64,000 nucleotides of DNA from Streptomyces spiramyceticus. Its GTDB lineage: Bacteria; Actinomycetota; Actinomycetes; Streptomycetales; Streptomycetaceae. This document shows, piece by piece, positions 12,180 to 31,338 of this stretch. The stretch lies in the NCBI RefSeq assembly GCF_028807635.1, contig NZ_JARBAX010000002.1:1116001-1180000 (forward strand), read 5' to 3'. Numbering within the stretch: the first letter of the stretch is position 1; each line of letters starts with the position of its first letter. The notes under the pieces are model-generated. The model saw only the letters and a program-made list of their open reading frames with translations. It was not told the origin of the DNA and ran no database searches. The position numbers and the translations under genes are program-made.

Positions 12180-14552
12180 GTGAGCGATGCCCTGCGCGAG
12201 TGGGCGGCGGCCCACGCACGATCGGTGGGCAAGGACGGGCGTACGGTCCCTGCCGCCGTCGCGCCGGGAACCCGGACGGCTCCGGGAAGCGGCTCGCTCG
12301 GCGGGGTGAGGGACCGGACTCCGGACACCCTGCGCTCGTACAGCCGACTCTGTCTGGCGGTCATGGACGGACTTCCGGTTGGCGCGGCGAGCGCCGTCGC
12401 CCCCGTCTCGAACGTCGGAGGGCCGCCGCCGAGGGTGTTCGTCCTCACGCAGGGCGGAAGCACCGGTCTTGGCGTGGAGCCGCTGGACCGGTTTTCCCTC
12501 GAACCGCTGGAGTGGCCCATCGGGTGGGCGGACCCGGGCCACGGCAACCCCGTGCTCGCCACGAGCGGCGGCGGCAACAACGTGTACCTGCACGACATCG
12601 GAGCCGGTTACCGGAAGGATTCTTATGAGGCGAACTTCTCCCTCGAATCGGCAAAGCTGACCACGGGGCGGGACGGTGCCCTGCTGCTGACCGCCGGGGG
12701 ACCGGACAACGTCGTCATCTGGGACCTGGCCGAGAGAGAGCCAGGCAGCAGTACCCACGTTCTGTTCGGCCTGCAGGCCACTTCGTCGGTCGAGCTGAGC
12801 GAGGTACAGCCGGACGGTGCCAATCTGGTGGCGACCGGCCACCGGGACGGCCGTGTCCTCGTGTGGGGCTTCAACGATCCCGCCCTGGAACTCGTCCATG
12901 AGATGGACGCCGCCCCCGGCCCGGTCTGGGCGGTGGCCTGGGGCATGCTCCCCAACGGATCGGCGCTGCTCGCAAGCGGTCACGACGACGGAAGGATCTG
13001 TGTCTGGAACGGGCTGACAGGCACCCTCCTGGTGACGTGCCCGCCCTGTCCCGGGCGCGTCGACTCCGTGGCCTGGACGGTCGGTCCGAACGGCCTGAAC
13101 ATCCTCGCCAGTGGCCACAGCGACGGCACGGTGCGCATCTGGAGCTGGCAGACGGGCTCTGTCCTCCACGAGTTCGACGGCCTCACCGCTCACGGAGTAC
13201 CGCCCTTCGACGTGGGCAGCATGGTCGGCTGGCTGCTCCTGCCCCAGGGCAGCATCTGGCTGTACGCCGCAGGGGAGACGGGCTCGCGCATCTGGGAACT
13301 GGAGCTCGACGGCCTTCTGGCCGCCTCCGGGACCTTATCGAGCACCGAGGCCACCGATCAGGAGGCGACCGTACAGCCCCGACCGCTCCCGGCGACCGTG
13401 TGCAGGGGTCTGGTGCGTCTGGCCGCGAGCGGGGTGTGTCCGCCGCTCGGCCTGCTCGACGACCTGGTCACCCTGAGCGGACCGGCCACCGCGCCGCTGC
13501 TGGACGAACGGATCAGAAGCCTCGCCGACCACCCGGGAGTACGGATCCTGCGCGACCTGGAATGGCCCGCGCCGGCCCGGGTAGGGCTCGCCGGTCTGCT
13601 GGCGGCGGGTCTTTCCGAGCCGGACACCGTCCCGCCACCCGGCCACGGCCCCCGCGAACTGTCGGACGCACTGCGCCGCGCCCTCATCGGGGCACCTTCC
13701 CGCGTGCCCGACCGCGAGCCCCCACTGGCCGCGCTCAGGGCAGCGGCGGACGCGGTCACCGGGCGTACGGCCGCCCTGCTCGCCGTCATCGGACCCGAAG
13801 CTGTCGCCGACGACCCGGTACTCCCCCTGCGCATGGCGCAACAGGCCCCGGCCATGCCCTCCGTGGACCTCCGCAGACTCCAGCTCCTCACCGGCGCCGC
13901 ATCGACGGCGGCCCAGCACGCGGGCACGACCGTCCACGCACCCGGCTCGGGCGGCATCTCCCGCACGGGCCGGATCACCCAGATGCTCCCCAGTCAACTG
14001 GCGCTCCCCAACCGCCTGTTGACCCTCCGCTACGCGCGCCACGAACTCCTCTACCGCCTCCACAGCTCCGCCGCCCAATGGGCCCCGGAGCCGGTGACCC
14101 TGGTGCTGGACACCAGCCCGCCGACCTTCGGACCGCCCGAAGTCGTCCTGCGCTCGCTCGCGCATCTCCTCGCCACGACGCTGTGGTGCCACGGGCGTCA
14201 TGCCGCGTTCGTCGGGCTCGACCGGCCCGACCTGCTCCGCCCCGTCTCCCGCCCCGCCGACCTGGCCATGCTGTGGACCTCGCGCACGCTGGAGCCGCCG
14301 GATCTTGACGCCGCGCTGAACACGGCGGCGTCCACCGGGATGCCGACCGTACTGCTGGCCCTCCACCACCTCGTCCGCGACCACACACTCGTGGCGGGCC
14401 CGCGCCTGCGGCTCGCCACCACGCACCTGTACGACGATCTGCCCCGGGCCCGCCCGCCCGAGAGCCACCACGTCCACCTGCCGCCCGACGCCACCGGGCG
14501 CCGGCTCACGGACGCCGTGCGTCTGCTGCTGACGGGAGACGGTCCGTCATGA
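12180..14552 (+). CDS. WD40-repeat protein with C-terminal vWA-like domain (copy 1)
   Basis: 790 residues. WD40-type repeats fill about 80-400 (SGHDDGRICVWNG, SGHSDGTVRIWSW). A helical middle follows, and a C-terminal domain (about 600-790) begins with the strand VTLVLDTSPPTFG, resembling a vWA fold whose MIDAS DxSxS is altered to DTSPP. It is paralogous to the gene at the far end of the operon (28929-31338). The GTG at 12180 overlaps the TGA of a lost upstream gene (GTGA), of which only about ten codons survive. Codon 386 (13335) is TTA. A vWA partner fits the MoxR ATPase in this operon. Expected role: scaffold or sensor. Confidence 0.75.
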   Translation: MSDALREWAAAHARSVGKDGRTVPAAVAPGTRTAPGSGSLGGVRDRTPDTLRSYSRLCLAVMDGLPVGAASAVAPVSNVGGPPPRVFVLTQGGSTGLGVEPLDRFSLEPLEWPIGWADPGHGNPVLATSGGGNNVYLHDIGAGYRKDSYEANFSLESAKLTTGRDGALLLTAGGPDNVVIWDLAEREPGSSTHVLFGLQATSSVELSEVQPDGANLVATGHRDGRVLVWGFNDPALELVHEMDAAPGPVWAVAWGMLPNGSALLASGHDDGRICVWNGLTGTLLVTCPPCPGRVDSVAWTVGPNGLNILASGHSDGTVRIWSWQTGSVLHEFDGLTAHGVPPFDVGSMVGWLLLPQGSIWLYAAGETGSRIWELELDGLLAASGTLSSTEATDQEATVQPRPLPATVCRGLVRLAASGVCPPLGLLDDLVTLSGPATAPLLDERIRSLADHPGVRILRDLEWPAPARVGLAGLLAAGLSEPDTVPPPGHGPRELSDALRRALIGAPSRVPDREPPLAALRAAADAVTGRTAALLAVIGPEAVADDPVLPLRMAQQAPAMPSVDLRRLQLLTGAASTAAQHAGTTVHAPGSGGISRTGRITQMLPSQLALPNRLLTLRYARHELLYRLHSSAAQWAPEPVTLVLDTSPPTFGPPEVVLRSLAHLLATTLWCHGRHAAFVGLDRPDLLRPVSRPADLAMLWTSRTLEPPDLDAALNTAASTGMPTVLLALHHLVRDHTLVAGPRLRLATTHLYDDLPRARPPESHHVHLPPDATGRRLTDAVRLLLTGDGPS

Positions 14553-15595
14553 CCACCGTACGAGCGGCCCGGCCGCACTGGCGCCCCGCGCTCCTCGGTG
14601 AGCCGGCGGCGGGGACCGACGTGCGATGCGAACTGTGCCCGTACCGCTGCCGGATACGGGACGGGCAGCGCGGCTACTGCCAGGTGCGCCGCAACAACGG
14701 CGGCCGGCTGGAAACCGCGACGTTCACCGCCTCCGTGGCCCATCTCGACGCAATCGAGCGCAAGCCCTTCTACCACTTCGGGCCCGGCAGCAAGGTCCTG
14801 ACCGTGGCCGGGCCCGGCTGCAGCTTCAGGTGCGACTACTGCGTCAACCACCGGTTGTCGCAGTACGGCCGCGAGGAAGACGCACCGTGGACCGGGGAGC
14901 CCGCCCGCCCGGACGAGCTGGCGGCCCTGGCGCACGCGCAGGGCGCCGGCCTTGCGCTCTCGTACGCCGAGCCTTCCCTCGCCCCGGAACTCACCCTCGC
15001 GCTCGCGGAGTACGCCCGGCCTCTGGGCGTACCGGTGATGTGGAAGAGCAACGGATTCCTGACGCCCCGGGCCGTCGACCTCGTCGCGCCGGCGATCGAC
15101 GCGGTGAACATCGACGTAAAGGCTGCCGAGGAGGCCCCGCACCAGCGGCTCACGGGTGCGCCGCTCGCACCCGTACTGGCCGCGGTGGAGCGGTTCAGGG
15201 CGGCCGGTGTGTGGGTGGAGGTGAGTACGCCGCTGATCCCCGGTACTTCCGCAGATCCTGGGCAACTGCGGGCGATCGCAGGCTTGTTGGCGGCCATCGA
15301 CCCCGACCTTCCATGGCATCTGCTCCGCTTCACACCGGACTTCCGGATGAGCGCCGAGGACCCCACGGCGCCGTCCGCGCTGGAGGATGCCCGGCGCGCG
15401 GGGGCCGAGGAGGGGCTGCGCTTCGTGTACGTGGAGCGGGCGTTGGGAGCGGAGGGCCGCAACACCCGCTGTCCGCACTGTGCGTTCACCGTCGTGGAGC
15501 GGGGCATCTGGGAGACACTCGACAACAAGCTTGCCGACGGCGGCTGCCCCTCGTGCCGGGCGGCGGTTCCAGGAAGGTGGGAGACACAACAGTGA
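14549..15595 (+). CDS. Radical-SAM enzyme, AmrS-like
   Basis: 348 residues. The radical-SAM cluster motif CxxxCxxC is at Cys91, 95 and 98. An N-terminal cysteine cluster (Cys27, 30, 34, then GYCQVR) and a C-terminal zinc-ribbon pair (CPHC... CPSC) match the AmmeMemoRadiSam radical-SAM group, whose reaction is not firmly known. Neither of that group's usual partners (AMMECR1, Memo) is nearby. Instead the next gene encodes a 73-residue protein, so a small-protein or peptide substrate is an attractive guess. The ATG overlaps the WD40 gene by 4 bp. Confidence 0.8.
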   Translation: MTTVRAARPHWRPALLGEPAAGTDVRCELCPYRCRIRDGQRGYCQVRRNNGGRLETATFTASVAHLDAIERKPFYHFGPGSKVLTVAGPGCSFRCDYCVNHRLSQYGREEDAPWTGEPARPDELAALAHAQGAGLALSYAEPSLAPELTLALAEYARPLGVPVMWKSNGFLTPRAVDLVAPAIDAVNIDVKAAEEAPHQRLTGAPLAPVLAAVERFRAAGVWVEVSTPLIPGTSADPGQLRAIAGLLAAIDPDLPWHLLRFTPDFRMSAEDPTAPSALEDARRAGAEEGLRFVYVERALGAEGRNTRCPHCAFTVVERGIWETLDNKLADGGCPSCRAAVPGRWETQQ

Positions 15596-15813
15596 CCACG
15601 GGCCATGTCTTCACCGTATTCACCGAGGCGATCCCCGATCTCATAGGGCCGGAAGAATACGCGGACCACCCGCACGGAAATCTCGTCCGCGTCCGCATCC
15701 GCGTCACCGAATCCGGGATCGAGGTGATCGGCGACGCGCTGCGGCCCCGCGCCGTGGAAGACGTACTCGACGCGCTCGGTGAAGGCCCGATGGAGCAGAT
15801 GCTGTGCGGGTAG
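15592..15813 (+). CDS. Small protein ending in Cys-Gly, possible modifier or radical-SAM substrate
   Basis: 73 residues, no recognised family. It starts at GTG 15592, overlapping the radical-SAM stop by 4 bp. The body alternates a strand-like run (GNLVRVRIRVTESGIEVIGD) with a helix (RAVEDVLDALG) and finishes MEQMLCG. A free C-terminal Gly preceded by Cys recalls ubiquitin-like or sulfur-carrier tails activated by E1 enzymes, and an E1-like gene lies one gene away. It is too short for me to claim a beta-grasp fold. Alternatively it is a cofactor-carrying chaperone for the radical-SAM protein. Confidence 0.6.
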   Translation: MTTGHVFTVFTEAIPDLIGPEEYADHPHGNLVRVRIRVTESGIEVIGDALRPRAVEDVLDALGEGPMEQMLCG

Positions 15814-16454
15814 CCGACGACGATGACGACGCCCTGGCGGACCGCGCCTTCGAAGCGGGCATGGCAGCGGGCCTCGACCCGCAGGAGGAAACCGGCCGGA
15901 CCGGTGAAACGGCCGTCACGCACGTCTCCTCCCCGTGGAACCACCGGCTGTGCTCGACGTGCGGCCAGAGCTTTCGGCGCGGCGACCCGGTGCGCGTGGG
16001 CGGCGGGGGAGCGGCGGGCAGTGGCGTGGCCCTGGACGACGTGGCCCACCTCGACCCGGCCCTGGCCTGCGCGGCCGGACCCGGAGAGGAGGGAGAGGAG
16101 TCGAAGGGGCCTGGCGGCCACTCCGCAGACTCCACAGCCTCCACCGAATTCGCGGCGGGAGTGCTGGCCACCTGGCCGCCGGTCGACGGCGTGCCGGTCG
16201 CCCCGCTGACGGCGGACGACTGGCAGGTGGCCCGCCCCGCCGTCCATGGGGCCAGGCCGCCCCGCTGCCTGTACTGCGCACACACCTTCCGCGCCGGAGA
16301 ACACGTGGTGCTCTGTCCCTGCTCCCCGGGCCGCCCCGCATGCGGCGCGGCCGTCCACCGGGATCCTGCCGCCGGGCTGGTCTGCTGGGAGAGCTGGCGG
16401 CCCGAGGGCCGGCTGAAGATCTGCCCCGTCAAGCTCGTCGCCGTACAGGAGTAG
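15804..16454 (+). CDS. Cysteine-rich zinc protein, RING-like C-terminus
   Basis: 216 residues. One CxxC knuckle lies near residue 50 (CSTCGQSF) before an acidic low-complexity linker. The C-terminal 70 residues show CLYC, then CPC, a C..AVH step and two later cysteines (LVCWES, KICPV), spacing that could form a cross-braced RING or other treble-clef domain. In an operon with E1-like and E2-like genes an E3-like adaptor role is plausible, but the assignment rests on cysteine spacing alone. GTG at 15804 lies inside the previous gene's end (10-bp overlap) with GGAG 10 bp upstream. Confidence 0.6.
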   Translation: MRVADDDDDALADRAFEAGMAAGLDPQEETGRTGETAVTHVSSPWNHRLCSTCGQSFRRGDPVRVGGGGAAGSGVALDDVAHLDPALACAAGPGEEGEESKGPGGHSADSTASTEFAAGVLATWPPVDGVPVAPLTADDWQVARPAVHGARPPRCLYCAHTFRAGEHVVLCPCSPGRPACGAAVHRDPAAGLVCWESWRPEGRLKICPVKLVAVQE

Positions 16455-16460
16455 CGGCCG

Positions 16461-17549
16461 ATGACGGGGGAGGACCGGTTCGCACGCGAGCGGCTCGTGC
16501 CGGGATGGGATCCCGATACGTTCGCCGGGGCCACGGCCGTCGTCGTCGGCCTCGGCGCGCTGGGGAACGAGGCGGCCAAGAACCTGGCCCTGGCCGGGAT
16601 CGGCAGGCTGGTCCTCTGCGACCCCGACACCGTGGAGACCACCAACCTGAGCCGTTCCGTCCTCTTCGGCCCCGACGATGTCGGGCGGCCCAAGACGGAA
16701 GCCGCCGCAGAAGCCCTGCGACGCCTGTCCGCCACCGTCGTCGTCGAGCCCCGGGTGCGCGACCTCGCCGCAGGCGTGGGACTGGGCGAACTCGCCGCGG
16801 CCGACGTGGTGCTGGGCTGCCTGGACAGCCTGCGCTCCCGCATGCGCCTGCTGGGCCGGTGCGCACTCGTCGAAGCACCGCTCGTGGACGGCGCGACCGG
16901 CCCCTGGGAAGGGGAGATACGCCTGCGGCTCGACACACAGGAAGCCTGTTACGGCTGCACACTGACCGCGCACCAGCGAAGCAGCGCCGACGTCCCGTGG
17001 AGCTGCCTCGACGACACGACGGCCGGCCCGCTCGGCACATCCATCGGTACGACCGCCCTGGTCGCCGCCTGGATGACACAGGCCGCGCTGCGCAGCGTCC
17101 TCGGCACCCCGCCCCCGTACCGCATGCTGCGCATCGAATCCCTGACGGGCCGCACGGCGCCCGTCGCGATGACCCGCGCACGCGACTGCCCGCACCACCG
17201 TCCGATTCAGGGCGACATCACGCCCTGCGCGCTCAATCACCGTGCCACCGCAGGGGAGTTGACCGCCGTACTGCCCGGTGGCGAGCCACTCACGTGGTCG
17301 CAGTTTCCACTTCCCGTACGCTGCCGGGCCTGCCAGGGCTACGCTGAAACCGTCGGCGACCGGGCAGTGGCCGACACGCCGTTCTCACGATGTGACCAGT
17401 GCGGCCGCCTGCGGCGACCGCGGTTCAGTAATCGCCTCAGGGATGCCGCTCCGGACGCCCGACTGACCGAGCTCGGAGTACCCCCTCAGGAGATCCTGCC
17501 CGTCCGGCAGCCGAGGGGGGAGTACACATGGCATCAGCTGAGTTCCTGA
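16461..17549 (+). CDS. E1-like ThiF-family adenylating enzyme
   Basis: 362 residues. The Rossmann nucleotide loop GLGALG is at 30-35, with DPDTVETTNLSRS after it, the ThiF/MoeB/E1 pattern that binds ATP and the modifier's C-terminus. Cys163/166 (CYGC) may bind zinc. Cys182 in PWSCLDD sits where ThiF-type enzymes have the catalytic cysteine. A further pair of CxxC motifs near 293 and 314 ends in a C-terminal tail. It should adenylate a C-terminal glycine and pass it on as a thioester. ATG at 16461 follows AGGAG. Confidence 0.85.
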   Translation: MTGEDRFARERLVPGWDPDTFAGATAVVVGLGALGNEAAKNLALAGIGRLVLCDPDTVETTNLSRSVLFGPDDVGRPKTEAAAEALRRLSATVVVEPRVRDLAAGVGLGELAAADVVLGCLDSLRSRMRLLGRCALVEAPLVDGATGPWEGEIRLRLDTQEACYGCTLTAHQRSSADVPWSCLDDTTAGPLGTSIGTTALVAAWMTQAALRSVLGTPPPYRMLRIESLTGRTAPVAMTRARDCPHHRPIQGDITPCALNHRATAGELTAVLPGGEPLTWSQFPLPVRCRACQGYAETVGDRAVADTPFSRCDQCGRLRRPRFSNRLRDAAPDARLTELGVPPQEILPVRQPRGEYTWHQLSS

Positions 17550-19105
17550 ACGGCCCGCCTGAGCCCCGGGACGCGGCAGGCCCGGCGCCGCAGCCGGAGA
17601 TCCCCATCAGCAGGGAGGACCGCTACCGGCTGCTGGAGGTACTGGCGAGCATTTACGGAACCGACAAAGAGGCGGCCGGAATCCTCGACCGCATCGGATT
17701 CCCCCGCGGACGGCGCCCCAACTTCGTCGGCGCGAAGCCCGAAGAGACATGGACGGAAATCTTCGTCGACCTCAGCAACGGGGTCGTGGCGTCCCCCTAC
17801 CGGCAGCTGATCACCATCGCGGTCCGCGTGTACAGCGCCAACGAGACCCTGGTGGACCTCGCCCGTACGTACGGCATCCTCCCGCCGGTCGCCGGCGCTC
17901 CGGCTCCCGCTCCAGTGCCCGCTCCACAACCTGTGCCGCAGCCCGCCGTCGCGCCCACCGCCCCAGCCGCGGCGGCGGCCGCGCCCCAGGCCGAGCCCAT
18001 GTGCCACGTGATCGTCCGCGCGGACTCCGAGAACGACCGCCGGCGAGCGGCGACCGCCCTCACCGCGCTGGGCCTGCGTCCCAGAGAGGTCTGGTCGACC
18101 GCCCACGCCGTCTCCTTCCGCGTCGACTCCGACCAGCCCGATGTCGTACGGGAAGGGTTACGGGACACCCTGTTCGGCTGGACCGTCGTCGCACCGGGAC
18201 AGCCCGACTACCTGCTGCACCAGCTCTTCGTCGAAGGCCCGGACGGCCGGCAGTTCCGGCTCATCGACGCACCGGCCCAGCAGGCGAACAGCGACGTCGC
18301 GGCCGAAGTCGTGGACCAGTACGGCCCGGGATTCACCGACGCCACCCGTTCCACCGTCATCGACCATGTGCAGGCTGACGGCCAGGGCCGCCGCCTGGAC
18401 CCCGACGCCACCCTCCACGAGTCGGGCGTCCAGGACGGGGACCGTATGCGGGTCGGCTTCGAGACCACGGCCGGGGCGGTCAACCCCCTCGACCGGCAGG
18501 ACGCCCTCTACCGGGTGCGCAACCAGATCGTCGCCTACGCCGAAAGCCACCCAGGATTCGGCGTCAGCGCGGACTCGGCGCTGCTGCCCACCGAATTCGA
18601 GGTGGAATTCGAGCAGTTGAGCTTCGGCCCGCCCACCTCCCCCGGCGGCGAACCGTCCGAGATCACGCACCATGTCGTACTGATCCAACTCGGCCCGGAA
18701 TTCCCGGAGACGGCCCCCGAGGTCTACTGGCTGACCCCCGTCTTCCACCCCAACGTCTTCCCGAACTACGACTGCGAACAGTCGCGCGCCTACGCGCAGA
18801 GCAAGGGCCTGGTGTGCCTCGGGCTGCTCGCCGAGTCGTACCAGCCGTCACTCAGCTTCGGAACGCTGTGCCAGATGCTCGTCGACATGGCGGGCTTCCG
18901 GAACTACTCGCTGTTCGAGCCGACCGGCGAGCTCGGTCCCGACGGCAATCCCCGGGTCCGCGGAAACTTCTACGACCGCACCGCGGCGCAATGGGTCGAA
19001 GAGCACCAGGACCGGATCAGCGCCATCAACGGCAGCGTCGCCGCTCCCACCCTCCGGGACTCACCCCGCTACCCCAACCTCGTCGAACCCGTCGACGGCC
19101 GATGA
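17528..19105 (+). CDS. Adaptor-ubiquitin-like-E2 fusion protein
   Basis: 525 residues in four parts: an effector-associated (EAD1-like) helical domain (about 26-120), a Pro/Ala linker, a small alpha/beta module (about 160-225), a ubiquitin/YukD-like beta-grasp region (about 228-320), and an E2 conjugating fold (about 325-500). The E2 part has the HPN motif at 407-409 and a GLVCLG loop whose Cys430 matches the E2 catalytic cysteine, followed by the usual SLSFGTLCQMLVDM helix. It looks catalytically intact. The adaptor domain resembles the N-terminus of the CHAT protease at 28.1 kb. Codon 211 (18158) is TTA. ATG at 17528 follows GGGGGGAG and overlaps the E1 gene by 22 bp. Confidence 0.82.
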   Translation: MASAEFLNGPPEPRDAAGPAPQPEIPISREDRYRLLEVLASIYGTDKEAAGILDRIGFPRGRRPNFVGAKPEETWTEIFVDLSNGVVASPYRQLITIAVRVYSANETLVDLARTYGILPPVAGAPAPAPVPAPQPVPQPAVAPTAPAAAAAAPQAEPMCHVIVRADSENDRRRAATALTALGLRPREVWSTAHAVSFRVDSDQPDVVREGLRDTLFGWTVVAPGQPDYLLHQLFVEGPDGRQFRLIDAPAQQANSDVAAEVVDQYGPGFTDATRSTVIDHVQADGQGRRLDPDATLHESGVQDGDRMRVGFETTAGAVNPLDRQDALYRVRNQIVAYAESHPGFGVSADSALLPTEFEVEFEQLSFGPPTSPGGEPSEITHHVVLIQLGPEFPETAPEVYWLTPVFHPNVFPNYDCEQSRAYAQSKGLVCLGLLAESYQPSLSFGTLCQMLVDMAGFRNYSLFEPTGELGPDGNPRVRGNFYDRTAAQWVEEHQDRISAINGSVAAPTLRDSPRYPNLVEPVDGR

Positions 19106-20118
19106 GTACCCCGGCGGGCATCGACGTGGAACTCTTCCGCACTGACGACTACGTAAGGGCCGGGCGGCTGCCGTTGCTGCCCCTTCTGCGCAGCGTCCTG
19201 GAGCCCATGGTCGGCCAGTCGCTGGAGGGAGCCACGATCGAGCTGTCCTTCCTGCCCCTCACCGACCGCGCGCCGGTCCGGGGCACGCCCTCCGTCATCA
19301 ACCTCAGGGGCAGCCACGGTTACGTCCAGGTGCGGATCGTCCGCGGGGACACCGTGCTCTACCAGCACCCGCACGCGTTGCGCGAAATCGTCGGCAGGCC
19401 CCTGCAGGAACTCCTGGGTGAGAGGCTCCCGGAGGAGACGCACTGGGGCTTCGGGATCCGCGGGCCCGGGCTGGAGAAGGTCGCCCTCGTCCGGCCGAAA
19501 CCCATGGCCGCCAACCGGGTCGAGATCGCCGTCGGCGGACCCAGGCGACGCCTCTTCGGCATCGAGGAAGTGCCGGAACCGGAGCCGCCCGTCGCGACCC
19601 TCCAGGAACTCGGCATCGCCGAACCCACCGTGGAGGCAGTGTCCGAACCGGTCGCGGTGGTCCTCCACTCACGCGTGCACGGGGCACTGACCGGCGCGCG
19701 GCCGTTCTCGCGCGAGGTCGAGGAGGGCGGATTCCTCGCGGGGCACGTCCACCGCAACGCCGAACACCCGGACGGCCACCTGGTGGAGGTGACCGTGGCG
19801 ATCCCCGCCGAACGCACCGGCGCCTCCCTCCTGCACTTCACCTTCACCGGCGAGAGCTACCTCAGGATCGGTGAATCGCTCGCCGCACGGGCCAGGGGCG
19901 AGAGCCTCGTCGGCTGGTACCACACGCACCTGTTCCCGGCCACGGACCGCTTCGGGCTCTCGTCGGCCGACGTAGACCTGCACACCACCACCTTCCACCG
20001 CCCGTGGCAGGTGGCGGCCCTCGTCAACATCGACCAGGCGTCGCGCGTACTGCGCCTCTACCGCCGAAACGGGGCCGACACGATGACCACCGCCCCCTAC
20101 TGGGTGAGGGAGCCGTGA
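19102..20118 (+). CDS. JAB/JAMM-type metalloprotease (deconjugase)
   Basis: 338 residues. The C-terminal half is a JAB domain: a Glu in the EEGGFLAG strand, then His274-Thr-His276 and a Ser287-x-x-Asp290 pair, the zinc set E...HxH...SxxD of JAMM proteases that release ubiquitin or process its precursors. The N-terminal ~170 residues are unfamiliar. It overlaps the E2 gene by 4 bp (ATGA), so conjugation and removal are encoded side by side. It probably trims or removes the modifier made by this operon. Confidence 0.88.
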   Translation: MSTPAGIDVELFRTDDYVRAGRLPLLPLLRSVLEPMVGQSLEGATIELSFLPLTDRAPVRGTPSVINLRGSHGYVQVRIVRGDTVLYQHPHALREIVGRPLQELLGERLPEETHWGFGIRGPGLEKVALVRPKPMAANRVEIAVGGPRRRLFGIEEVPEPEPPVATLQELGIAEPTVEAVSEPVAVVLHSRVHGALTGARPFSREVEEGGFLAGHVHRNAEHPDGHLVEVTVAIPAERTGASLLHFTFTGESYLRIGESLAARARGESLVGWYHTHLFPATDRFGLSSADVDLHTTTFHRPWQVAALVNIDQASRVLRLYRRNGADTMTTAPYWVREP

Positions 20119-21056: not shown

Positions 21057-21070
21057 GAGGAGTGGTTCCC

Positions 21071-23119: not shown

Positions 23120-24351
23120 GCAACGCGACGCCGACGAGGCACGACAGGACCCGGCTGCTGGCACGCACCTTCGCCACGCGCCTGGAAGAGGTGAAACAGG
23201 GATTCGTCGAGCGCGACGAAGTGGTCGACCTGCTGGCGCTGGCCACGCTGTGCCGCGAACACGCCCTGCTGATCGGGCCACCGGGAACCGCCAAGACCCG
23301 GCTGATCGAGCGGTACTGCCGCATCCTCGACACATCACCCTTCACCTACCTGCTCACCCGGTTCACCGAGCCCGCCGAGCTCTTCGGGCCCATCGACCTG
23401 CGGAAGTTCCAGGACCAGAGCGTGTACGAGGTGAACACCTCCGGCATGCTCCCCGAGGCCCGTATCGCCTTCCTCGACGAGGTCTTCCAGGGCAGCTCGG
23501 CCATCCTCAACACCCTGCTGACCCTGGTCAACGAGCGAAACTTCTTCACCGGCAGCAAGACCATCCACGGCCGGCTGATCACGCTGCTCGGGTCGTCGAA
23601 CGAGATCCCCGACGACCCGGTCCTCGCCGCGTTCAGCGACCGCTTCCTGTTCCGCTGCCGCCTCGACTACGTCGCGGACGACGAGGTCGAAGAGGTGCTG
23701 GGACTGGGCTGGCAGGCGGAACAGCAGCAGATCCGCACCGATCCGGCCCTGGTCGACGGCCAGTTCGGCAAGGCACCCGTCAAGTCCCCCGTCAAGGTCG
23801 CCGGAACAGACCGCTCCCAGGTGGCCTTCCCGCTCGCGGATCTCGCCGTGCTGCAGCAGGCGCTGGCCGACATCGACCTGAGTGCCGTACGCGATCCGTA
23901 CGCCCGTATCGTGCGGGCACTGCGCGCCGAGGGCATCGCCTTCTCCGACCGCCGCGCCGTCAAGGCACAGAAGGCGTTCGCCGCGTCCGCGCTGCTGGCG
24001 GGCCGGCTGCGGGCGGAGATCTCGGACCTGGCCGTCCTGACACGGCTGTGGACGGACCCGAGGGACGAGCAGTCGCTGCGCCGCATCGTCGCCGACCACG
24101 GTGTCCCCGTCGATACGCCCGGCCGGATCCTGCGCGATCCCTACGACTTGCGGATCGACCTGCGCGAATGCCGCAACCGTCTGGCCCTGCTGCGTACTTC
24201 GGACGAAATCCGGGAGATGCTGCGACTCCTCGGACGCCTGGCCGCCGAGGCACGCCGGGACCACCCGGCCGAGCAGCCGCTGCTCAAGGAGATCAGCCAG
24301 GCTCAGCGCGAGACGCTCACCAAACTGCGCGAGGACTTCCCGGAGGAGTGA
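23116..24351 (+). CDS. MoxR-family AAA+ ATPase
   Basis: 411 residues. Walker A GPPGTAKT at 54-61, Walker B ARIAFLDEVFQGSSAILNTL and the NERNFF element are diagnostic for the MoxR/RavA group, which acts with vWA-domain partners to remodel proteins. Two vWA-like partners are encoded in this operon. GTG at 23116 overlaps the preceding ATPase gene by 4 bp. With the CDC48/FtsH-like ATPase and a vWA protein this recalls the FtsH-vWA-MoxR ternary conflict systems known from comparative genomics. Confidence 0.88.
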   Translation: MSNATPTRHDRTRLLARTFATRLEEVKQGFVERDEVVDLLALATLCREHALLIGPPGTAKTRLIERYCRILDTSPFTYLLTRFTEPAELFGPIDLRKFQDQSVYEVNTSGMLPEARIAFLDEVFQGSSAILNTLLTLVNERNFFTGSKTIHGRLITLLGSSNEIPDDPVLAAFSDRFLFRCRLDYVADDEVEEVLGLGWQAEQQQIRTDPALVDGQFGKAPVKSPVKVAGTDRSQVAFPLADLAVLQQALADIDLSAVRDPYARIVRALRAEGIAFSDRRAVKAQKAFAASALLAGRLRAEISDLAVLTRLWTDPRDEQSLRRIVADHGVPVDTPGRILRDPYDLRIDLRECRNRLALLRTSDEIREMLRLLGRLAAEARRDHPAEQPLLKEISQAQRETLTKLREDFPEE

Positions 24352-24357: not shown

Positions 24358-25131
24358 GTGTGCAATCCGAGGCGCATCAGGGTGCGGGCCACGCGTGAAC
24401 TGGCCGTCGCCTGGGAGCAGGAGATGCGGCGGCGCGTGGTGCGGTCCGGGGAGGCGACGGGCGAGGCGCGGGTGTGCGAGTCGCTGCGGGGATCCGTCGG
24501 CGCACCGACACTGGCCGCGCTGCCCGGCGTATTTGCCCGTTCGCCGGGGTGGGAGGAGACCGAGGACGCGTTCCGGTTCTCCTTCGACGGCGGTTACGTC
24601 GCCTACCGTCCGGCGGAGGCCGAGCTGGAGATCGTGGCGACCGTATCGGCGGCGATCGAGGCGGTGGGTGAAGCGACGGAGACCGTGCGCGGCGAGGTCA
24701 CCGGGACGATCGAGGCCGAGGGCACGGGCATGTACTACGACGACTCGTGGGGCGGCAGGAACCGCACGTCCGCCCGGCACGACGCACAGGCCGCGGCCGA
24801 GGCGGCCCTGAACAGGGAGGCCGAGGAACGGGTCCGAAGGGCCCGCAGCGAGGCCGGGGCGGGAGCCGGGGGCGAGGCGCAGGAGGCGGCAGCGGCCCGC
24901 GCCGACGCGGCCCTCGCAGCGGCGGCCAGGGCACGCGAGCCGGAACTGCGCGAGCAGGCGGCGGCGCGGCTGGCCGCCGTGGGCGTGATGGGCCGGAACC
25001 TCTTCCACCAGGCCCTGGCGGACGCATACCGGGACGCGGTGCTGGCGTACGCGCGCTCGCGCGGGGCCGAGTTCATCAGGTGTTCGGAGACCGACGGCGT
25101 CTTGGAGATCGACTTCGAGCTTCAGATCTAG
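24358..25131 (+). CDS. Operon protein of unknown function
   Basis: 257 residues. The N-terminal ~100 residues form a mixed fold. A long Ala/Glu/Arg-rich, probably coiled-coil segment (about 135-200) follows, and a C-terminal strand ends IDFELQI. No known motif was recognised. GTG at 24358 is 6 bp after the MoxR stop with GAGGAG 8-13 bp upstream. It may be one of the accessory X domains of MoxR/vWA ternary systems. Confidence 0.6.
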   Translation: MCNPRRIRVRATRELAVAWEQEMRRRVVRSGEATGEARVCESLRGSVGAPTLAALPGVFARSPGWEETEDAFRFSFDGGYVAYRPAEAELEIVATVSAAIEAVGEATETVRGEVTGTIEAEGTGMYYDDSWGGRNRTSARHDAQAAAEAALNREAEERVRRARSEAGAGAGGEAQEAAAARADAALAAAARAREPELREQAAARLAAVGVMGRNLFHQALADAYRDAVLAYARSRGAEFIRCSETDGVLEIDFELQI

Positions 25132-25198: not shown

Positions 25199-25462
25199 AT
25201 GCGGGTCCGCGTGAGGTTCCGGTACCGGGCCGACACCGGTGAGGTCGAGCTGTACGAGGTCGAGGACATCGGCCCGGGTCCGCGCGCGGCCGACCACGAC
25301 GCCCGGCACGACAGGGCGGCCGCCGCGCTGGCCAGGATCGTCGAGGACAACGCCCTCATCGAAGAGGTGCACGGCGACACCCGCCGACGGCGGCGCGAGC
25401 CGAACGAATCCGTACCCGAGGAGCGTCCGACGACACGGCGGGAGTTGCGCGACCGTGAGTGA
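25199..25462 (+). CDS. Small basic operon protein
   Basis: 87 residues. The first half reads as two strands and an acidic loop (VRVRFRYRADTGEVELYEVEDIG), then a helix, then an Arg/Glu-rich tail. ATG at 25199 follows GAGAGGGG at a good distance. Family unknown. It could be a small beta-rich partner or nucleic-acid-binding protein. It overlaps the next gene by 8 bp. Confidence 0.6.
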   Translation: MRVRVRFRYRADTGEVELYEVEDIGPGPRAADHDARHDRAAAALARIVEDNALIEEVHGDTRRRRREPNESVPEERPTTRRELRDRE

Positions 25463-26159
25463 CGCCGCACTGCTGGAACGCGCCGCGGGCTGCTACCTGC
25501 GGTCCGGGCTCCCGACCGAGGCCGCGCGCTGCCTGAGGGAGGCGGGCGCATACCGGCGCTCCGCCGAACTGTGCCGCGAACTGGGCGAGTTCCTCGGCGC
25601 GGCCGAGGACTACGTGTGCGCCGACATGATGGACGTGGCTGCCTGGGTTCTCGTCCACGAAGCCGGGGACGCGCCGGCCGCCAGGGCGGTCGCGGTCTGT
25701 GCGCCGCCCCGTGTCCGGACCGGGCTCGGCTCCGGGGAATGGACCGCGGCGGCTGTCCGGGTGACGCAATCCCGGTCGGCGCAACGGAGGTCGGCCGCCG
25801 AGCAGGAGGCCCGGGAAAGCTCGCTGCGCATGCGGCTGGCACTGGCACGCTGCGACGTTGCCGAAGGCCGCTCCGACCGGGAGCCCCTCGCCGCGCTCGC
25901 TGCGGCGGCGGTCTTCCTCGGCTCCCACTCCCTCGTGTACGACCGGCTGGTGGAGCAATGGGCGGTCGCGACAGCCGAGTCGATGCGGCGCTACGACCAG
26001 GTCGCCCTCCTCTTCGCAGCGGCCGTACGCGGACGGCGCAGTGGCGCGGCGCGGCGCTGGACCGAGTGGGCGGCGCGGGTGCTGCAGTCCGAGATCACGA
26101 TCCCCGATCTTCCTTCGGACGACCGTCGGCAGGCCGTCCGTGCACTACGACAGGGATGA
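25455..26159 (+). CDS. Helical-repeat (TPR-like) operon protein
   Basis: 234 residues, almost all helix. The first 80 residues show repeat pairs of the form LERAAGCYLRSGLPTEAARCL, typical of alpha-solenoid or TPR-like scaffolds. The same style recurs at the C-terminus of the next protein (AAEIHEHNGDALRAANLYERAA). GTG at 25455 has GGGAG 9 bp upstream and lies inside the end of the previous gene. Expected role: protein-protein interaction within the complex. Confidence 0.65.
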   Translation: MSDAALLERAAGCYLRSGLPTEAARCLREAGAYRRSAELCRELGEFLGAAEDYVCADMMDVAAWVLVHEAGDAPAARAVAVCAPPRVRTGLGSGEWTAAAVRVTQSRSAQRRSAAEQEARESSLRMRLALARCDVAEGRSDREPLAALAAAAVFLGSHSLVYDRLVEQWAVATAESMRRYDQVALLFAAAVRGRRSGAARRWTEWAARVLQSEITIPDLPSDDRRQAVRALRQG

Positions 26160-26162: not shown

Positions 26163-28067
26163 ATGAAGTGGCCACGACGACGCAGAAACGACGACCAGGA
26201 CCAGCAGCCCGGACTACCGCCGCCCGCCACGCCGTCGGCACCGCCGCCCGTCCCGCCTGGTCCGCCCCGGCCGCCCTCCGGGGCACTGGAGGAGGTGCTG
26301 CGGTCGCGCGGCCGTGGCAGCAGGCCGCCGGCCGGGTCCGCACCGCGCGATGCCGAACCGCGCCCCAGGGCCCTGGGGCAACGTCCCGCCCCGGAACCGG
26401 ATGGGCGTACGGCCTCGGGACCGGCCCGCCGTCCGGCACCTGTACCGAAGGCGGCACCTGCACGTGCCGCCCTGGCCGACGTAAACAGTGGTGCCGGTGA
26501 TTCCGGCGAGACCGCCATCGCCGTGCGGTTCGCCACCGCCACCTCCGCACTTGTCTTCACCGGGCGGCTCGCCGCCCTGGGCCGCCCGCAGGCCGGTGAC
26601 CACCGCCGGAGCGTCGACGGATCGTCCTGGTGGGTGTTCACGCACGTCGCGCTGGACCTCGGGCGGCAGTTGGCGACGGCTGCCGACGGCACGGTGTTCC
26701 TGGTCAGGAGCACGCAATTGGTACGGGACCAGGGCTGGGGCGACCCGGAGCGCGTCGCGGGACGCCGGTCGGCGCAGCGCCTGCCCCTTGCCTCGTTGCG
26801 CCCCGCCACGCTCTTCGACCTGGTGCGCAGGGCCGGCCTGTACAGCGTGCCGGGGAGGGCCCTGGACGACGCGGTGGTGCTGCTGCGGGCAGAGTTCGCC
26901 GGCGGTGTCATCAGGCGGGCACTCGACCTGGGCCTGGAGGTGACGTACCGCCCCACCCGCCTCACCCCGCTCTTCGACGACGAGCCGTCGGACCCCGCCC
27001 AGCACGGCGTCGTACTCGAACTCGCCCTGCGGGCACCGCACGGAGACCTCCCCGCCGGTTTCCTCGACGCGCTCCACCGTGACCCCTTCACGCTGCTCTG
27101 CCGCCGCGTCGGGGGAGAGGACACCGTACTGATGCAGTACCGCCAGGGATCCGCGCTGAGCGACGGCCCTCTCCTGGAGCTCGCCGAGCGGGGCGTATGG
27201 CTGCTGTCGGGTTCGGAGTTCGGCTGCGCCCGGCTGGAGCGGCTGGGCGAGCCGCTCGACGGCGGGGCCCTGGTCGAGCTCGCGGCCGACTATCCGCTGC
27301 AGGACGTGGGCGCCTCGCCGGACTGGGCCGACGACGCGCCGACCGCACCCGAAGCTCCCCGCCTCACCGTCGTGCCCGCCCGGACCTCGGGCGCCACGGT
27401 CGACGCCACCCTGCTGGACGGCACACAACTGGACACCGTACGGATGATGCTGGAGGGGCATCCCCTCGCCGACGCCGTCCAGGTCGTCACCGGGCGCGAC
27501 CAGCATCTGCTGCTGGCGGCTGGCGGACTGCTGGAGCGCCTGCCGCTGGGGGAGCCGCTGCACTGCACGGGCCCCGGCCCGCTGTACATCCCCCTCGGAT
27601 TCCGTACGGAGCCGCTGTTGCCGCCGTCGGCCCTGGAGGCGCTCTTCGAGCCCGACGCCGACAGAGCCGTCGTACTGACCGCGCATGCCGCTCTCGTCTT
27701 CGACCTCACGCGGCGCCGCCCCGCCTGGACGCTGTGGGTGGGCCCGCTTCCCGAGCCGGACCTCCAACTCCCCGACGAGGCAGAGGCCGTACTGCGCGTG
27801 GTCGACGAAAGGCTGACCCCCAAGCCCAAGCCGCGCCCGGCGGAACCGCCGCGCCTGCGGCAGGCGCAGCCGCCCGGCAGCCGGCCGAGGCATGCCGGGA
27901 CCGGCAGCTCCCGCCGTCCCCGGCACTGGCGGGACACCGCGCTCGACGCGGAGTTCGCCGGTGACCTGGTGCGCGCCGCCGAGATCCACGAGCACAACGG
28001 GGATGCACTGCGCGCGGCCAACCTCTATGAACGTGCGGCGCGGCAGGCCGCGGGCCGGAGGTGGTAG
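26163..28067 (+). CDS. Large operon protein with Pro-rich N-terminus
   Basis: 634 residues. A Pro/Arg/Ala-rich disordered region (about 1-115) precedes two related alpha/beta modules (about 118-400 and 405-560), and a short helical-repeat tail (about 590-634) matches the preceding protein. The two modules share strands such as TTLFDLVRRAGLYSVPG and HPLADAVQVVTGRDQ. No catalytic motif was recognised. ATG at 26163 lies 3 bp after the previous stop. It may bridge the helical-repeat protein to the ATPases. Confidence 0.62.
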   Translation: MKWPRRRRNDDQDQQPGLPPPATPSAPPPVPPGPPRPPSGALEEVLRSRGRGSRPPAGSAPRDAEPRPRALGQRPAPEPDGRTASGPARRPAPVPKAAPARAALADVNSGAGDSGETAIAVRFATATSALVFTGRLAALGRPQAGDHRRSVDGSSWWVFTHVALDLGRQLATAADGTVFLVRSTQLVRDQGWGDPERVAGRRSAQRLPLASLRPATLFDLVRRAGLYSVPGRALDDAVVLLRAEFAGGVIRRALDLGLEVTYRPTRLTPLFDDEPSDPAQHGVVLELALRAPHGDLPAGFLDALHRDPFTLLCRRVGGEDTVLMQYRQGSALSDGPLLELAERGVWLLSGSEFGCARLERLGEPLDGGALVELAADYPLQDVGASPDWADDAPTAPEAPRLTVVPARTSGATVDATLLDGTQLDTVRMMLEGHPLADAVQVVTGRDQHLLLAAGGLLERLPLGEPLHCTGPGPLYIPLGFRTEPLLPPSALEALFEPDADRAVVLTAHAALVFDLTRRRPAWTLWVGPLPEPDLQLPDEAEAVLRVVDERLTPKPKPRPAEPPRLRQAQPPGSRPRHAGTGSSRRPRHWRDTALDAEFAGDLVRAAEIHEHNGDALRAANLYERAARQAAGRRW

Positions 28068-28071
28068 GCGC

Positions 28072-28932
28072 GTGCCCAGGACCGAAGCGATGAACCTGAC
28101 GGACGACGAGATCCACGAACTCGCCCGCGTCTTCCCGCCGGGACCGAGCGCCAGGACCCTGCTCCACAGGGCCGGATTCCCCGGCGAGCATGTGCCGAGT
28201 CAGCTCGGAGTCACGCCGCTCGAATTCTGGTACACGGTGGCGGCCGCGATCTCGGCAGGGATGGTGGAGGACGGCCGGCGTCAGTTGCTGGTGACAGCGG
28301 GCCGCGACTTCCCGCACAACGCGGTGTTCCTTGCCGTGACGCGGGCGCGGTCGCCCGTCGGGCACGTCCTGGTCGTGGGGGCGGGCCCCCATGGGTCCGA
28401 ACGGGTGCGTGCAGACCGGGAGTTACGGGCCATCCAGCAGGCCACGGCGGGCGGCGCGATTGCCGTGGACTACTGTCCGGCCGCCGACGTCACCGACCTG
28501 GGACGCGTTCTGGACGTACGCCCCGACCTTCTGCACCTCGTCTGTCACGGGGAGGGCGAGCAGCTGGTCTTCGAGGACCCGTACGGCGACGCCCACCGGG
28601 TGCCCGCACGTGACGTCGCCGGGCTGTTGCGGGTATACGCGCGCCATGCCGGTGCGGAGCTGCGCGGCCTGGTTCTGGCGTCCTGCGACAGCGAGGCGGT
28701 GGCCGAGCTGTTCACGGGCGTGGCCGAGACCGTGGTCGCCCACCGGGGACCGCTCGACGACGAGACGGCGGTGCTCTACGCGCGGGAGCTCTACGGCCTC
28801 CTTGAACAGGTGCCCGCACTTGACGACGCGGCACGGATCGCCGCCGAGCACGTCGCGGTGGCACTGGGCGACGAGTACGGCGAGCAGTTGAAGGCGAACC
28901 TCGTGGTGCTGGGGCCGGGCGGGGAGCGGTGA
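28072..28932 (+). CDS. EAD-CHAT protease (candidate effector)
   Basis: 286 residues. The N-terminal effector-associated domain (about 8-80: ELARVFPPGPSARTLLHRAGFP, then RQLLVTA) resembles residues 30-120 of the E2 fusion. A caspase-like CHAT domain follows, with His159 in HLVCHGEGE and Cys205 in LASCDSEA as the likely catalytic pair. CHAT proteases act as effectors in several bacterial immune systems. GTG at 28072 has GGAGGTGG ending 7 bp upstream; ATG at 28090 is the alternative. Codon 118 (28423) is TTA. Its adaptor would let the conjugation machinery recruit it. Confidence 0.8.
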   Translation: MPRTEAMNLTDDEIHELARVFPPGPSARTLLHRAGFPGEHVPSQLGVTPLEFWYTVAAAISAGMVEDGRRQLLVTAGRDFPHNAVFLAVTRARSPVGHVLVVGAGPHGSERVRADRELRAIQQATAGGAIAVDYCPAADVTDLGRVLDVRPDLLHLVCHGEGEQLVFEDPYGDAHRVPARDVAGLLRVYARHAGAELRGLVLASCDSEAVAELFTGVAETVVAHRGPLDDETAVLYARELYGLLEQVPALDDAARIAAEHVAVALGDEYGEQLKANLVVLGPGGER

Positions 28933-31338
28933 CAGTGACGTCGACGATCCCGGCAGAGGACCGGGCGCTGCGCGCCTGGGCACTGGCTCAGGCGCGCTCG
29001 GTGGGACGCGGCGGCGCGGGGCCGGAGCCGCTGGCTGCCGTGGGTGGGCCGTCGCAGGAGCTGACGGCCGGCATCACGAGGCTGGAGGGGCAGGGGGCGG
29101 AGCATACGACGTGCATGGACATCGGTGCGATGCCGGGGGGACCGCTGCTGGTGGCTACGGGCAGCCCGATGGGCAGGGTCCGGGTTTGGGACGGGCAGAC
29201 GGGCAAACTGCTGCGCTCGATGCAGGACGGAAACGAGCAGGTGTTGTCCGTAACCTGGAACATGGCCGGCGGACAGGGCCCTGTTGGCAGTGCAGGGCCA
29301 CTCGGGGAGCGCCATATGGGACGGGATGACGGCGGCACTGCTGGTCCGTGTGCCCGGCTCTTCGTCCCATGCCCCGGTGCGGGTCCACGGCGCGGAGCGC
29401 TTCCTCTTCCGCTTCCGCCGCCACTACTCGGATGTTGAATATGTCATCGATATCTATGGACCGGGCGGCTACTACGGTGACTTGGGGTCGTCGGCCGACT
29501 TGGGCAGACCGGTGCTGTGCGGACTGGCCGATTCATCGGGAGCGACGACAATCGTGAGCTCGGAGGGCGGCCGCTTCGAGACGAAGAGAGCGACGGAAAC
29601 ACCCCCCTTGGGCCGGACAACCATGGCCGCTCGCCTGTCGATTGATGCAGATCGCCCGACGCTCATGGCCGCAACGGGGTTGTCCCGGGATAACTTCCTG
29701 CTGGCAGAGGGGTTCGAAAGCGGGTTCTCCGTCTGGGAAGTTGTCGCCAACTCCGGGGTGAGGCTGGCCAGTCGCCTGCTTCGGGGCGTGAAGACGCTGG
29801 ACTGGCTGGACCTGCCCGATCACCGGAAGCTCCTGGCGATCGGCTGCGACGACGGCTCGCTCACGCTCATGGGCCTGGAGCCCGCCAGTGATGCGCCGGT
29901 AGGAGCACCCGGCAGGTGGCGGACCGAAAATTTCGACTCGCCCTACGACCACCCCGGCATCATCAGCGTGACCTGGTGTCTGCCGTCCTCCCGGCTGCCG
30001 ATGACCGCCGTGCTCTGCGAGGACCTCACCGTACGGCGCGAGCCGGGACCTTTCGCGGCCGTTCCGCACGAGGCGAGCGGCAACAAGCTGTCCTCAGGAC
30101 CGGATACGCCACCACCGCCCGACGTAACTCCACCCTCCGACGCACCCCCACCCCCCGACGCGCCACCGCGCCCCACCGCCCTCCACGTCGACCCGGCCGG
30201 CCTCGTCGCTCTCGGCAAGGCCGACCTGTGGCCGCCGCTCTCCCTCGTCGAAGACCTCGTCGCACTCACCGGCAGGACCGCCCCCGGCGCACTCCACGAC
30301 CCCCGCTTCCGTGCGCTCGCCGACCACCCCGGCATCGTCCGCCTCAAGGAACTGGCCTGGCCGGGCCGCTCCCGGATCGGATTCGCGGGGCTCCTCGCGG
30401 CCGAGACCGCCCAAGTCGCCGAGTGCGCCCCTCCGCCGGGGAGCGGCGACGCGGACCGCGTGGCAGCCCTTCGCGACGCGCTGGCCTCCGGGCTGTGCGA
30501 GAGCGATGTACCGGCCGTACCGCTGACGCCCGTCGCCGACGTCGCCAACAGGGTGAGCGACCGGATGATCTCCCTTCTCACCGTTCTCGGTCCGGAGACG
30601 GTCCAGGCCGACCCCAGCCTGCCGCTCCTGCTCGCGCGCTCGGCCGCCGACATGCCGCACCTCGATCGCCGCCAACTCCGGCTGCTCGCCCCGCAGGCGA
30701 GCGACGGCTCCGCCCGTACGAAGACCACCGTCCACGCGCCGGGCACCAGCGGCACCAGCAACCGTGGCGCCCTGACCCATCTGCTGCCCACCCAACTCGC
30801 CCTGCCAAGAACGCTCCTGCTCCTGAAGCACTCCCGCCACGAACTGCTCTACCGGCTCCATGTCACGGAGGCCGAGCCGTTCCCGGGAGAGGTCACCCTG
30901 GTCCTCGACACCAGCCCGCCGACGTTCGGGCCGGTCGAAGCGCTGCTGCGCGCGGCGGCGCATCTCATCACCGCCGAGTTCTGGCGGTACGGCCGCCATC
31001 CGCAGCTCGTGACCTTCGACCGGCCGTCCCAGGCCGTGCCCGTCGCCCGGCCCACCGACCTCCTCGCCCTATGGACCACCCGCACACTCGACGTCCCCGA
31101 CGTGGCCCGCGCACTGGCAACCGCCGCCACCAGCGGCGCCCCCGCTCTCCTCCTCACACATCACCGTCTCCCACGCGAACTGGGCCTGACACCAGGCCCG
31201 CAGTTGCGCCTGTTCACCACTCATTCGGCGGACGACGCCCCCGCAGGCCGCTGGGCCCTGCCGTTTCAGCGGCATGTCCCGCCGTCCCCGCAACCCGCCC
31301 AGTTACGCAACGCCATCTCGGCGCTCCTGATGGGATGA
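28929..31338 (+). pseudogene. WD40/vWA-like protein (copy 2), frameshifted
   Basis: This is a paralogue of the gene at 12180. GTG at 28929 overlaps the CHAT gene by 4 bp and encodes the shared N-terminus (RALRAWALAQARSVG) and the first WD40 repeat. The reading frame then breaks: a single extra G in GGG at 29276-29278 moves the rest (WD40 remainder, Pro-rich linker near residue 390, then the helical and VTLVLDTSPPTFG domains) into the +1 frame. Without that base the product would be about 802 residues. Either a real mutation, an assembly error or programmed slippage. TTA at 31303. It closes the operon. Confidence 0.75.

Follow-up and report, generated by a model that had tools for sequence, protein, structure and literature searches.

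What kind of machine is encoded by a run of sixteen genes in Streptomyces spiramyceticus that sets proteins of ubiquitin-like (Ubl) conjugation beside AAA and MoxR ATPases, a radical S-adenosylmethionine (SAM) enzyme and a CHAT protease? The run spans positions 12180-31338 of the window, by which we mean the whole stretch of 64,000 nt analyzed here (assembly GCF_028807635.1, contig NZ_JARBAX010000002.1, positions 1,116,001-1,180,000 of the forward strand). The initial annotation of this DNA described a ubiquitin-style tagging and unfolding operon with a protease effector, likened parts of it to FtsH-vWA-MoxR systems, and presented it as a joining of such components to ubiquitin-style conjugation. 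The description is right, yet two systems are not newly joined here, since Kaur et al. had predicted the whole as one system, the complex variant of the FtsH ternary system, in 2020 (eLife, PMC7159879). Our best explanation is that the operon is a copy of this FtsH-type MoxR-vWA ternary system in its Ubl-bearing variant and that it would work by means of a tag that recruits an executioner; we put the probability of identity and working taken together at roughly 0.6.

The identity follows from gene content. In the passages of that paper which describe it, the complex variant comprises a propeller-vWA protein, E1, JAB, a RING-type protein, an EAD1-Ubl-E2 fusion, an EAD1-fused caspase-like effector, helical proteins found only in the system, and a Memo-type radical SAM enzyme that enters with its peptide as a peptide-processing unit. 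The window operon shares these features: a two-domain AAA protein with a dead first and a live second domain, a MoxR of the family, a propeller with a divergent vWA, E1, JAB, RING and EAD1-Ubl-E2 proteins, the EAD1-caspase-like effector, a Memo/AMMECR1-type radical SAM enzyme with a small peptide, and several proteins unique to the system. Indeed, Pfam holds families named after it (fvmX1, X2, X3, X7, fvmJAB_N and fvmRadSAM-pep). What is missing is the zincin metallopeptidase for the peptide, which is stated there for most systems, not all: HExxH occurs in 0/17 window proteins. Among unlabelled frames of at least 150 aa in the related loci L018-L041, nine frames in five loci contain the motif, of which we judge one to be credible (L019, minus strand) and the others to look like non-coding frames. 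The window differs further in having two WD40-vWA genes and an extra upstream gene, g0, and its relatives differ in having TIR for CHAT in some cases and, at one propeller-type locus, no Ubl genes. The simple FtsH ternary systems, as the same passages present them, have AAA, MoxR, vWA, radical SAM and peptide in common with the window; their vWA protein bears a helical domain, and they have no Ubl set; the Acidobacteriota locus L072/L073 is likewise without a Ubl set, yet carries WD40-vWA and RING. As for the proviso in the initial annotation that such a system might already be described, those passages describe the gene set and do not establish its function, and no experimental study of this class was among the papers listed in our literature searches. 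Measured against them, the kind is already known as a prediction, and what is new here is a likely cut site, the peptide tail, the evidence for two modules, g0 and the exchange of effectors.

The gene calls hold, and all sixteen genes lie on the plus strand in the order WD40-vWA, radical SAM, 73-aa peptide, RING-like protein, E1, EAD1-Ubl-E2, JAB, fvmX1, tandem AAA, MoxR, fvmX2, fvmX3, gp13, fvmX7, EAD1-CHAT and second WD40-vWA (Table 1). Four-bp overlaps make up 7/15 junctions if the TTG start is taken for the AAA gene, so that the earlier "mostly" was slightly generous. The activities named from the outset are supported by Pfam matches over cut-off for E1, radical SAM, AAA, MoxR, WD40 and CHAT, as is EAD1. 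Support is weaker for E2, JAB and RING, which like Ubl have matches below cut-off and were assigned together with conserved residues and context, and for vWA, which has no Pfam match and was assigned by alignment, position and the published description. Of the proteins called unknown, only gp13 is without a Pfam family over cut-off, the rest being fvmX1, fvmX2, fvmX3, fvmX7 and fvmRadSAM-pep; gp13 shows repeat-like similarity to fvmX7. Sixteen is also not quite the full set, as g0 once preceded the run. The sixteenth gene is split into two overlapping frames. The first domain of the tandem AAA protein has no P-loop and the second is active by its motifs, scoring 190.9 bits against the NCBIfam profile of the proteasome-activating nucleotidase (PAN), 188.1 against CDC48 and 167.4 against FtsH, each below its family cut-off. 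For the radical SAM protein the best NCBIfam family is AmmeMemoRadiSam, with pyruvate formate-lyase activases next. A sequence search of the PDB linked the E2 region weakly to ubiquitin-conjugating enzymes (best E 0.0037) and returned nothing convincing for the peptide or the RING protein. No Rfam family exceeded its gathering score within window positions 8000-34000, and scans of 11600-12400 and 31000-32000 found no promoter- or terminator-like sites. Downstream, on the minus strand, lie genes for a dTDP-sugar epimerase and an EryCIII-like glycosyltransferase (33495-35372).

Table 1. Coordinates of the operon and its upstream flank in the window, with the evidence for each feature.
Feature	Position	Strand	Evidence
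g0 5' piece (extra first gene, interrupted)	8521..8781	+	95% DNA match to L018 up to 8781
Segment absent from ISL-98	8782..12127		DDE_5 transposase, acyltransferase, partial rRNA adenine dimethylase-family gene
g0 3' remnant	12128..12183	+	window-L018 match restarts at 12128
WD40 beta-propeller + degenerate vWA, copy 1	12180..14552	+	Pfam WD40; DxSxS in 0/13 rows
Radical SAM, AmmeMemoRadiSam type	14549..15595	+	Pfam Radical_SAM; TIGR04337 224.4 bits, cut-off 220
fvmRadSAM-pep, 73 aa	15592..15813	+	PF20007 E 2.9e-26; MLCG codons 15799-15810
RING-like zinc protein	15804..16454	+	Prok-RING_1 E 0.0019, below cut-off; 12 invariant Cys/His, 23 rows
E1-like enzyme	16461..17549	+	ThiF E 2.8e-40; C182 in 34/34 rows
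EAD1-Ubl-E2 fusion	17528..19105	+	EAD1 over cut-off; YukD, UQ_con below cut-off
EAD1-Ubl-E2, TAG border codons	18467-18475	+	
EAD1-Ubl-E2, E2 Cys430 codon	18815-18817	+	
JAB/JAMM isopeptidase with fvmJAB_N	19102..20118	+	PF20011 E 9.1e-42; JAB domain below cut-off; catalytic E, HxH, S, D present
fvmX1	20115..21056	+	PF19998 E 1.8e-63
Tandem AAA ATPase, CDC48/PAN/FtsH-like	21053..23119	+	PF00004 E 6.5e-41; motifs
bpMoxR ATPase	23116..24351	+	PF20030 E 1.8e-73, 246.4 bits; P-loop GPPGTAKT
fvmX2	24358..25131	+	PF20000 E 1.2e-83
fvmX3	25199..25462	+	PF19999 E 7.2e-24
gp13	25455..26159	+	no Pfam match over cut-off; position between X3 and X7 conserved
fvmX7	26163..28067	+	PF20005 E 8.8e-49
EAD1-CHAT protease effector	28072..28932	+	EAD1, CHAT over cut-off; His159, Cys205
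Second WD40-vWA gene, split in two frames	28929..31338	+	second piece 48% identical to copy 1, 380 aa

Relatives were gathered by a contig scan with two JAB peptide patterns, which gave 30 loci, six of which (L042-L047) are not this system. The other 24 come from Streptomyces, Frankia, Sphaerisporangium, another member of the Streptosporangiaceae, Actinoplanes, Dactylosporangium, two Acidobacteriota and Thiohalocapsa; together with two further loci of the genus, L005/L012 (genome G236) and L015/L016 (G888), and the window they make up 27 loci from three phyla. L013/L014 and L036 are one record, as their shared sequence shows; L013/L014 stands outside the 27, yet its rows stay in the alignments, which hold 23 rows for CHAT, 34 for E1, 41 for Ubl-E2 and 27 each for AAA and MoxR; L005 and L012 double one vWA row. 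Outside the 27 are also L079 (G1057) and L072/L073. The JAB-based scan was unable to find loci without JAB. The MoxR of the system is reported by Kaur et al. (PMC7159879) to have "often" GXXXTAKS, and the P-loop in our rows has the TAK form in 22 and TGK in 5. With broken frames collapsed and other genes (e.g., CHAT) allowed between them, the eleven core genes keep the order RING-E1-UblE2-JAB-X1-AAA-MoxR-X2-X3-gp13-X7 unbroken in 20/27 loci from two phyla, an arrangement that is therefore not due to chance. Of the exceptions, L019, L020 and L025 end with the contig and L038 with the fetched stretch, whose adjoining stretch holds X2, X3, gp13 and X7; L026 has gaps of N and overlapping X3/gp13 frames, L030 has E1-UblE2 twice, and X7 of L021 is on the opposite strand. 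Around this core, the CHAT, WD40-vWA and radical SAM-peptide genes shift in place or strand. Pairwise distances of E1, UblE2, JAB and RING track those of AAA (r 0.95-0.98, 23-25 loci), which indicates that these genes travelled together.

Within the tagging set, the fusion was examined at the border between Ubl and E2. In the Ubl-E2 alignment the columns of window-protein residues 314-316 read TAG in 32 rows, RAG in 4, IAG in 1 and VAG in 1, and Ala-Gly is thus present in 38/41; of the remaining three rows, L022 has VAA, a Ubl of L024 that lacks E2 has VAE, and one has a gap. In the non-Chloroflexi rows Ala315 is kept in 30/30 and Gly316 in 28/30, and the columns directly after are less conserved. 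Moreover, a second, free Ubl gene in 5/5 Chloroflexi loci (L042-L046) stops exactly after TAG. Based on the conserved border and these free proteins, Thr-Ala-Gly is likely the mature end of the Ubl, cut free from the fusion, and constitutes a candidate processing site. JAB as the enzyme that frees the Ubl was proposed by Kaur et al. (PMC7159879); compared with what is given there, the cut site itself is new. Among the 34 rows with an E2 domain, 33 retain the catalytic Cys430 and one, a second copy in L030, does not. In Streptomyces sp. ISL-98 (L018:8330-10004) EAD1 is in one frame and Ubl-E2 in another, either through a draft error or as a split gene.

These features suggest the following working. 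By family membership, the operon comprises a tagging set (E1, EAD1-Ubl-E2 and JAB) and a remodelling core consisting of the AAA protein with its dead and its live domain, MoxR, WD40-vWA, X1, X2, X3, gp13, X7, RING, and radical SAM with its peptide. JAB or another peptidase would cut EAD1-Ubl-E2 after Thr-Ala-Gly, a step to which the border lends new support, giving free EAD1-Ubl with a C-terminal glycine and free E2. E1, through Cys182, and E2, through Cys430, would attach EAD1-Ubl to a target. EAD1 on the tag, in line with the proposal in the cited passages of Kaur et al. (PMC7159879), would then recruit EAD1-CHAT, or EAD1-TIR in some relatives, and the tag would in this way lead the executioner to the protein that bears it. 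The threshold may be set by MoxR/vWA together with the AAA motor, which may also assemble the complex, strip it or unfold it; JAB could remove the tag again. Lastly, the radical SAM enzyme would modify the Cys-Gly end of the peptide, as a signal or switch of the core and not of the tagging set. The operon would most likely serve against invaders or in cell death, and the response to stress or phage that the initial annotation proposed is possible.

Bil and CBASS type II are Ubl-like conjugation systems that have E1, E2 and JAB chemistry in common with the window operon; to our knowledge, neither has an EAD1-Ubl-E2 fusion, an AAA/MoxR core or a protease effector. The window E1 matches the PADLOC BilD and E1-E2 profiles in part, and these two, with IetA, TRIP13 and pVip, are the profiles partially matched by the 10/17 proteins searched.

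The copy in the window could instead be a decaying, non-functional relic, which we consider unlikely and yet the most serious of the alternatives. In ISL-98 (L018), the reference for this comparison, g0 (2374-3096) encodes 240 aa and has a 4-bp overlap with the first WD40-vWA gene. In the window it is broken by a 3.35-kb segment (8782-12127) that replaces 0.4 kb of the ISL-98 gene, so the original promoter is possibly separated from the operon. The segment contains a DDE_5 transposase gene (9016-10191), an acyltransferase gene (10503-11669) and the C-terminal part only of an rRNA adenine dimethylase-family gene (frame 11728-12219, minus strand). The sixteenth gene consists of overlapping frames at 28929-29438 and 29284-31338, where its ISL-98 equivalent is one open frame up to the contig end, and its ratio of nonsynonymous to synonymous substitutions (dN/dS) is 1.04 over 223 codons; this second WD40-vWA gene is split and unconstrained in the window. 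Related DDE_5 genes on both flanks add to the impression of decay, the second one (31552-33054) being inverted and encoding a protein 70% identical to the first. The first fifteen genes tell otherwise: their frames are open, catalytic residues are present, and 14 other genes have dN/dS values of 0.05-0.26 against ISL-98, which as pairwise values could carry the signal of either lineage. EAD1-Ubl-E2 gives 0.35 over 389/525 codons, a consequence of its broken frame in the ISL-98 draft. A composite transposon was also considered and rejected, as ISL-98 has the operon but lacks the segment with the left DDE_5 gene, and a joint move is thus unsupported; the right flank lies beyond comparison because the ISL-98 contig ends. 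One relative of g0 adjoins CHAT in L012, and another is placed between X7 and WD40-vWA in L023; tblastn found no further ones in the fetched loci. Searched against Pfam up to an E of 1, g0 matched no family.

The effector end of the proposed pathway is variable in a manner that agrees with recruitment through EAD1. CHAT genes lie near 21/27 loci, and the His and Cys residues are present in 23/23 aligned rows, which makes an active protease probable. CHAT is missing from six loci, of which L019, L020 and L031 run off short contigs and L024, L026 and L038 have TIR proteins. The TIR protein comes with EAD1 in L024, with a partial EAD1 beside gaps in L026, and in L038 with no more than a weak EAD1 signal from our own profile. 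An NB-ARC protein is present in L026 as well, its EAD1 recognized by our own profile only. TIR proteins in three CHAT-less loci support executioners that would be interchangeable and recruited through EAD1. Two further arrangements were seen. One protein (L024:5141-7744) combines EAD1, Ubl (own profile), a GGDEF-like match and TIR without E2, and thus has Ubl fused directly to an effector. Another, in the Frankia locus (L020:7187-8044), is an EAD1-EAD2 protein and a possible bridge between two partner-protein families.

The distribution of the system bears on whether it might serve housekeeping quality control, with the Ubl marking damaged proteins and the AAA protein unfolding them for the proteasome or CHAT. 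Two properties fit this improbable role, namely that the active AAA domain scores best against the PAN and CDC48 profiles and that most genes are under purifying selection. The rarity of the system speaks against it. Counting the window's own genome or the seed genomes, fvmJAB_N is found in 2/295 sampled genomes of the genus and 1/296 of the phylum, fvmX1 in 4/394 of the family (3 over cut-off), and fvmRadSAM-pep in 1/396 of the phylum, which is not what a housekeeping system would show; fvmX2 exceeds its cut-off in 2/149 Acidobacteriota, in 1/219 genomes of the phylum of Thiohalocapsa and in 0/171 of the phylum of the Chloroflexi locus. The expectation voiced in the initial annotation, of the same genes in order with a patchy distribution, is borne out by the 20/27 loci and 2/295 genomes. 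Furthermore, an HbYX proteasome-docking end is found in 0/27 AAA rows (that of L026 is a broken frame), and the same core in relatives lies near TIR effectors, a domain that the cited passages of PMC7159879 call common in conflict systems. No plasmids with X1 and no viral contigs with X1 or the peptide were found. Distant sub-cut-off matches to X2 look like chance or frame artefacts, our own profile giving 17-18 bits in 2/4 and nothing in 2, and the surroundings of a sub-cut-off X1 match in G697 gave a 15-bit RING signal and nothing else; both were set aside.

The peptide ends in MLCG in 27/27 genes (QMLCG in 26 and RMLCG in L079), drawn from the 24 scan loci, L005, L016 and L079 and including Acidobacteriota and Thiohalocapsa. 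The 24 frames from the scan were picked by a pattern that includes the tail, yet one frame was returned per locus (24/24), and all 23 family matches extend to the last profile position. The peptide was found in 22/24 source genomes of the system and 0/4 Chloroflexi, that is, it was missed in 6/28 genomes (L019, L027 and the four Chloroflexi). Its structure model, with a predicted local distance difference test score (pLDDT) of 63.4 and a predicted template modeling score (pTM) of 0.46, has three strands, one helix and a low-confidence end, and, uncertain as it is, no beta-grasp. A divergent Acidobacteriota form (L079:1-19482, G1057) has the peptide between JAB and an unassigned gene and gives no fvmJAB_N match. 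The RING-like protein, matched weakly by Prok-RING_1, contains two modules, CxxC-H-C and one with eight ligands, and every ligand of both is invariant.

Two kinds of loci suggest that the tagging cassette and the AAA/MoxR core are separable. L072/L073, from an Acidobacteriota metagenome-assembled genome (MAG), has radical SAM, peptide, RING, X1, AAA, MoxR, X2, X3, gp13, X7 and WD40-vWA, with RING and X1 adjacent; the contig is 39.7 kb long, and the 25.7 kb of it that were read contain no E1, Ubl-E2 or JAB. The one JAB_N gene of this genome is in its other system (L025). Conversely, Chloroflexi loci L042-L046 share relatives of E1, Ubl-E2 and JAB with the window operon, have the free TAG-ending Ubl, and lack the other eight core genes over the 4.3-20.3 kb read. 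Core genes without tagging genes and tagging genes without the core thus make the two appear separable; the former case comes from one MAG locus, which may instead reflect loss or rearrangement. That RING stays with the core in L072/L073 argues that it does more than serve E2 as an E3. A clean split is not what the distances show, as those of the peptide track E1 (r 0.89, 9 loci) more than AAA (r 0.71, 8 loci); radical SAM distances have r 0.78 with AAA (8 loci), and those of RING have r 0.98 with AAA and r 0.95 with E1. The least probable alternative, in which E1 activates the radical-SAM peptide and not the fused Ubl and the invariant C-terminal glycine is the conjugated end, can point to the MLCG terminus, the low-confidence tail of the model and the fit of peptide to E1 distances, and was set aside because L072/L073 keeps radical SAM and a same-tail peptide with no E1, E2 or JAB in the stretch read, its genome's one JAB_N gene belonging to the other system. 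The uncertain model (pLDDT 63), which shows no beta-grasp, and the free TAG-ending Ubl of relatives also speak against it.

As a tentative history, possible and short of probable, two once-separate machines may have fused: a Ubl cassette of E1, E2 and JAB, and a self-sufficient AAA/MoxR core with RING and the radical-SAM-modified MLCG protein. In such a history RING would first have served the core and not E2, the Cys-Gly tail, modified by an enzyme resembling glycyl-radical activases, would be the trigger of the core, and released EAD1-Ubl would deliver CHAT or TIR to tagged proteins.

Several observations weigh against the Ubl-bearing ternary system working through a tag-recruited executioner. 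No protein of a named PADLOC system was matched over most of its length by the proteins searched (10/17). The YukD, UQ_con, JAB and Prok-RING_1 matches all fall below Pfam cut-offs, and the metal site of vWA is gone in every row that covers the region (13/13). Loci were gathered by JAB patterns, so the presence of JAB and its neighbors is partly a matter of selection. At the proposed cut site, L022 has Ala-Ala instead of Ala-Gly, and the free Ubls count as nearly one observation, since the five Chloroflexi loci seem to be closely related. The weaker fit of peptide and radical SAM to AAA does not favor the last step, in which the peptide switch belongs to the core. Finally, with g0 broken and the second WD40-vWA gene unconstrained, the window copy may be impaired.

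If the mechanism is true, bacteria would have a tag that carries its own executioner, a ubiquitin-like protein whose recruiting domain brings in a caspase-like protease or TIR enzyme wherever the tag is attached. What was a general prediction becomes a set of specific tests through the proposed TAG cut site, the catalytic cysteines of E1 and E2, the MLCG tail and a locus that naturally lacks the tagging genes.

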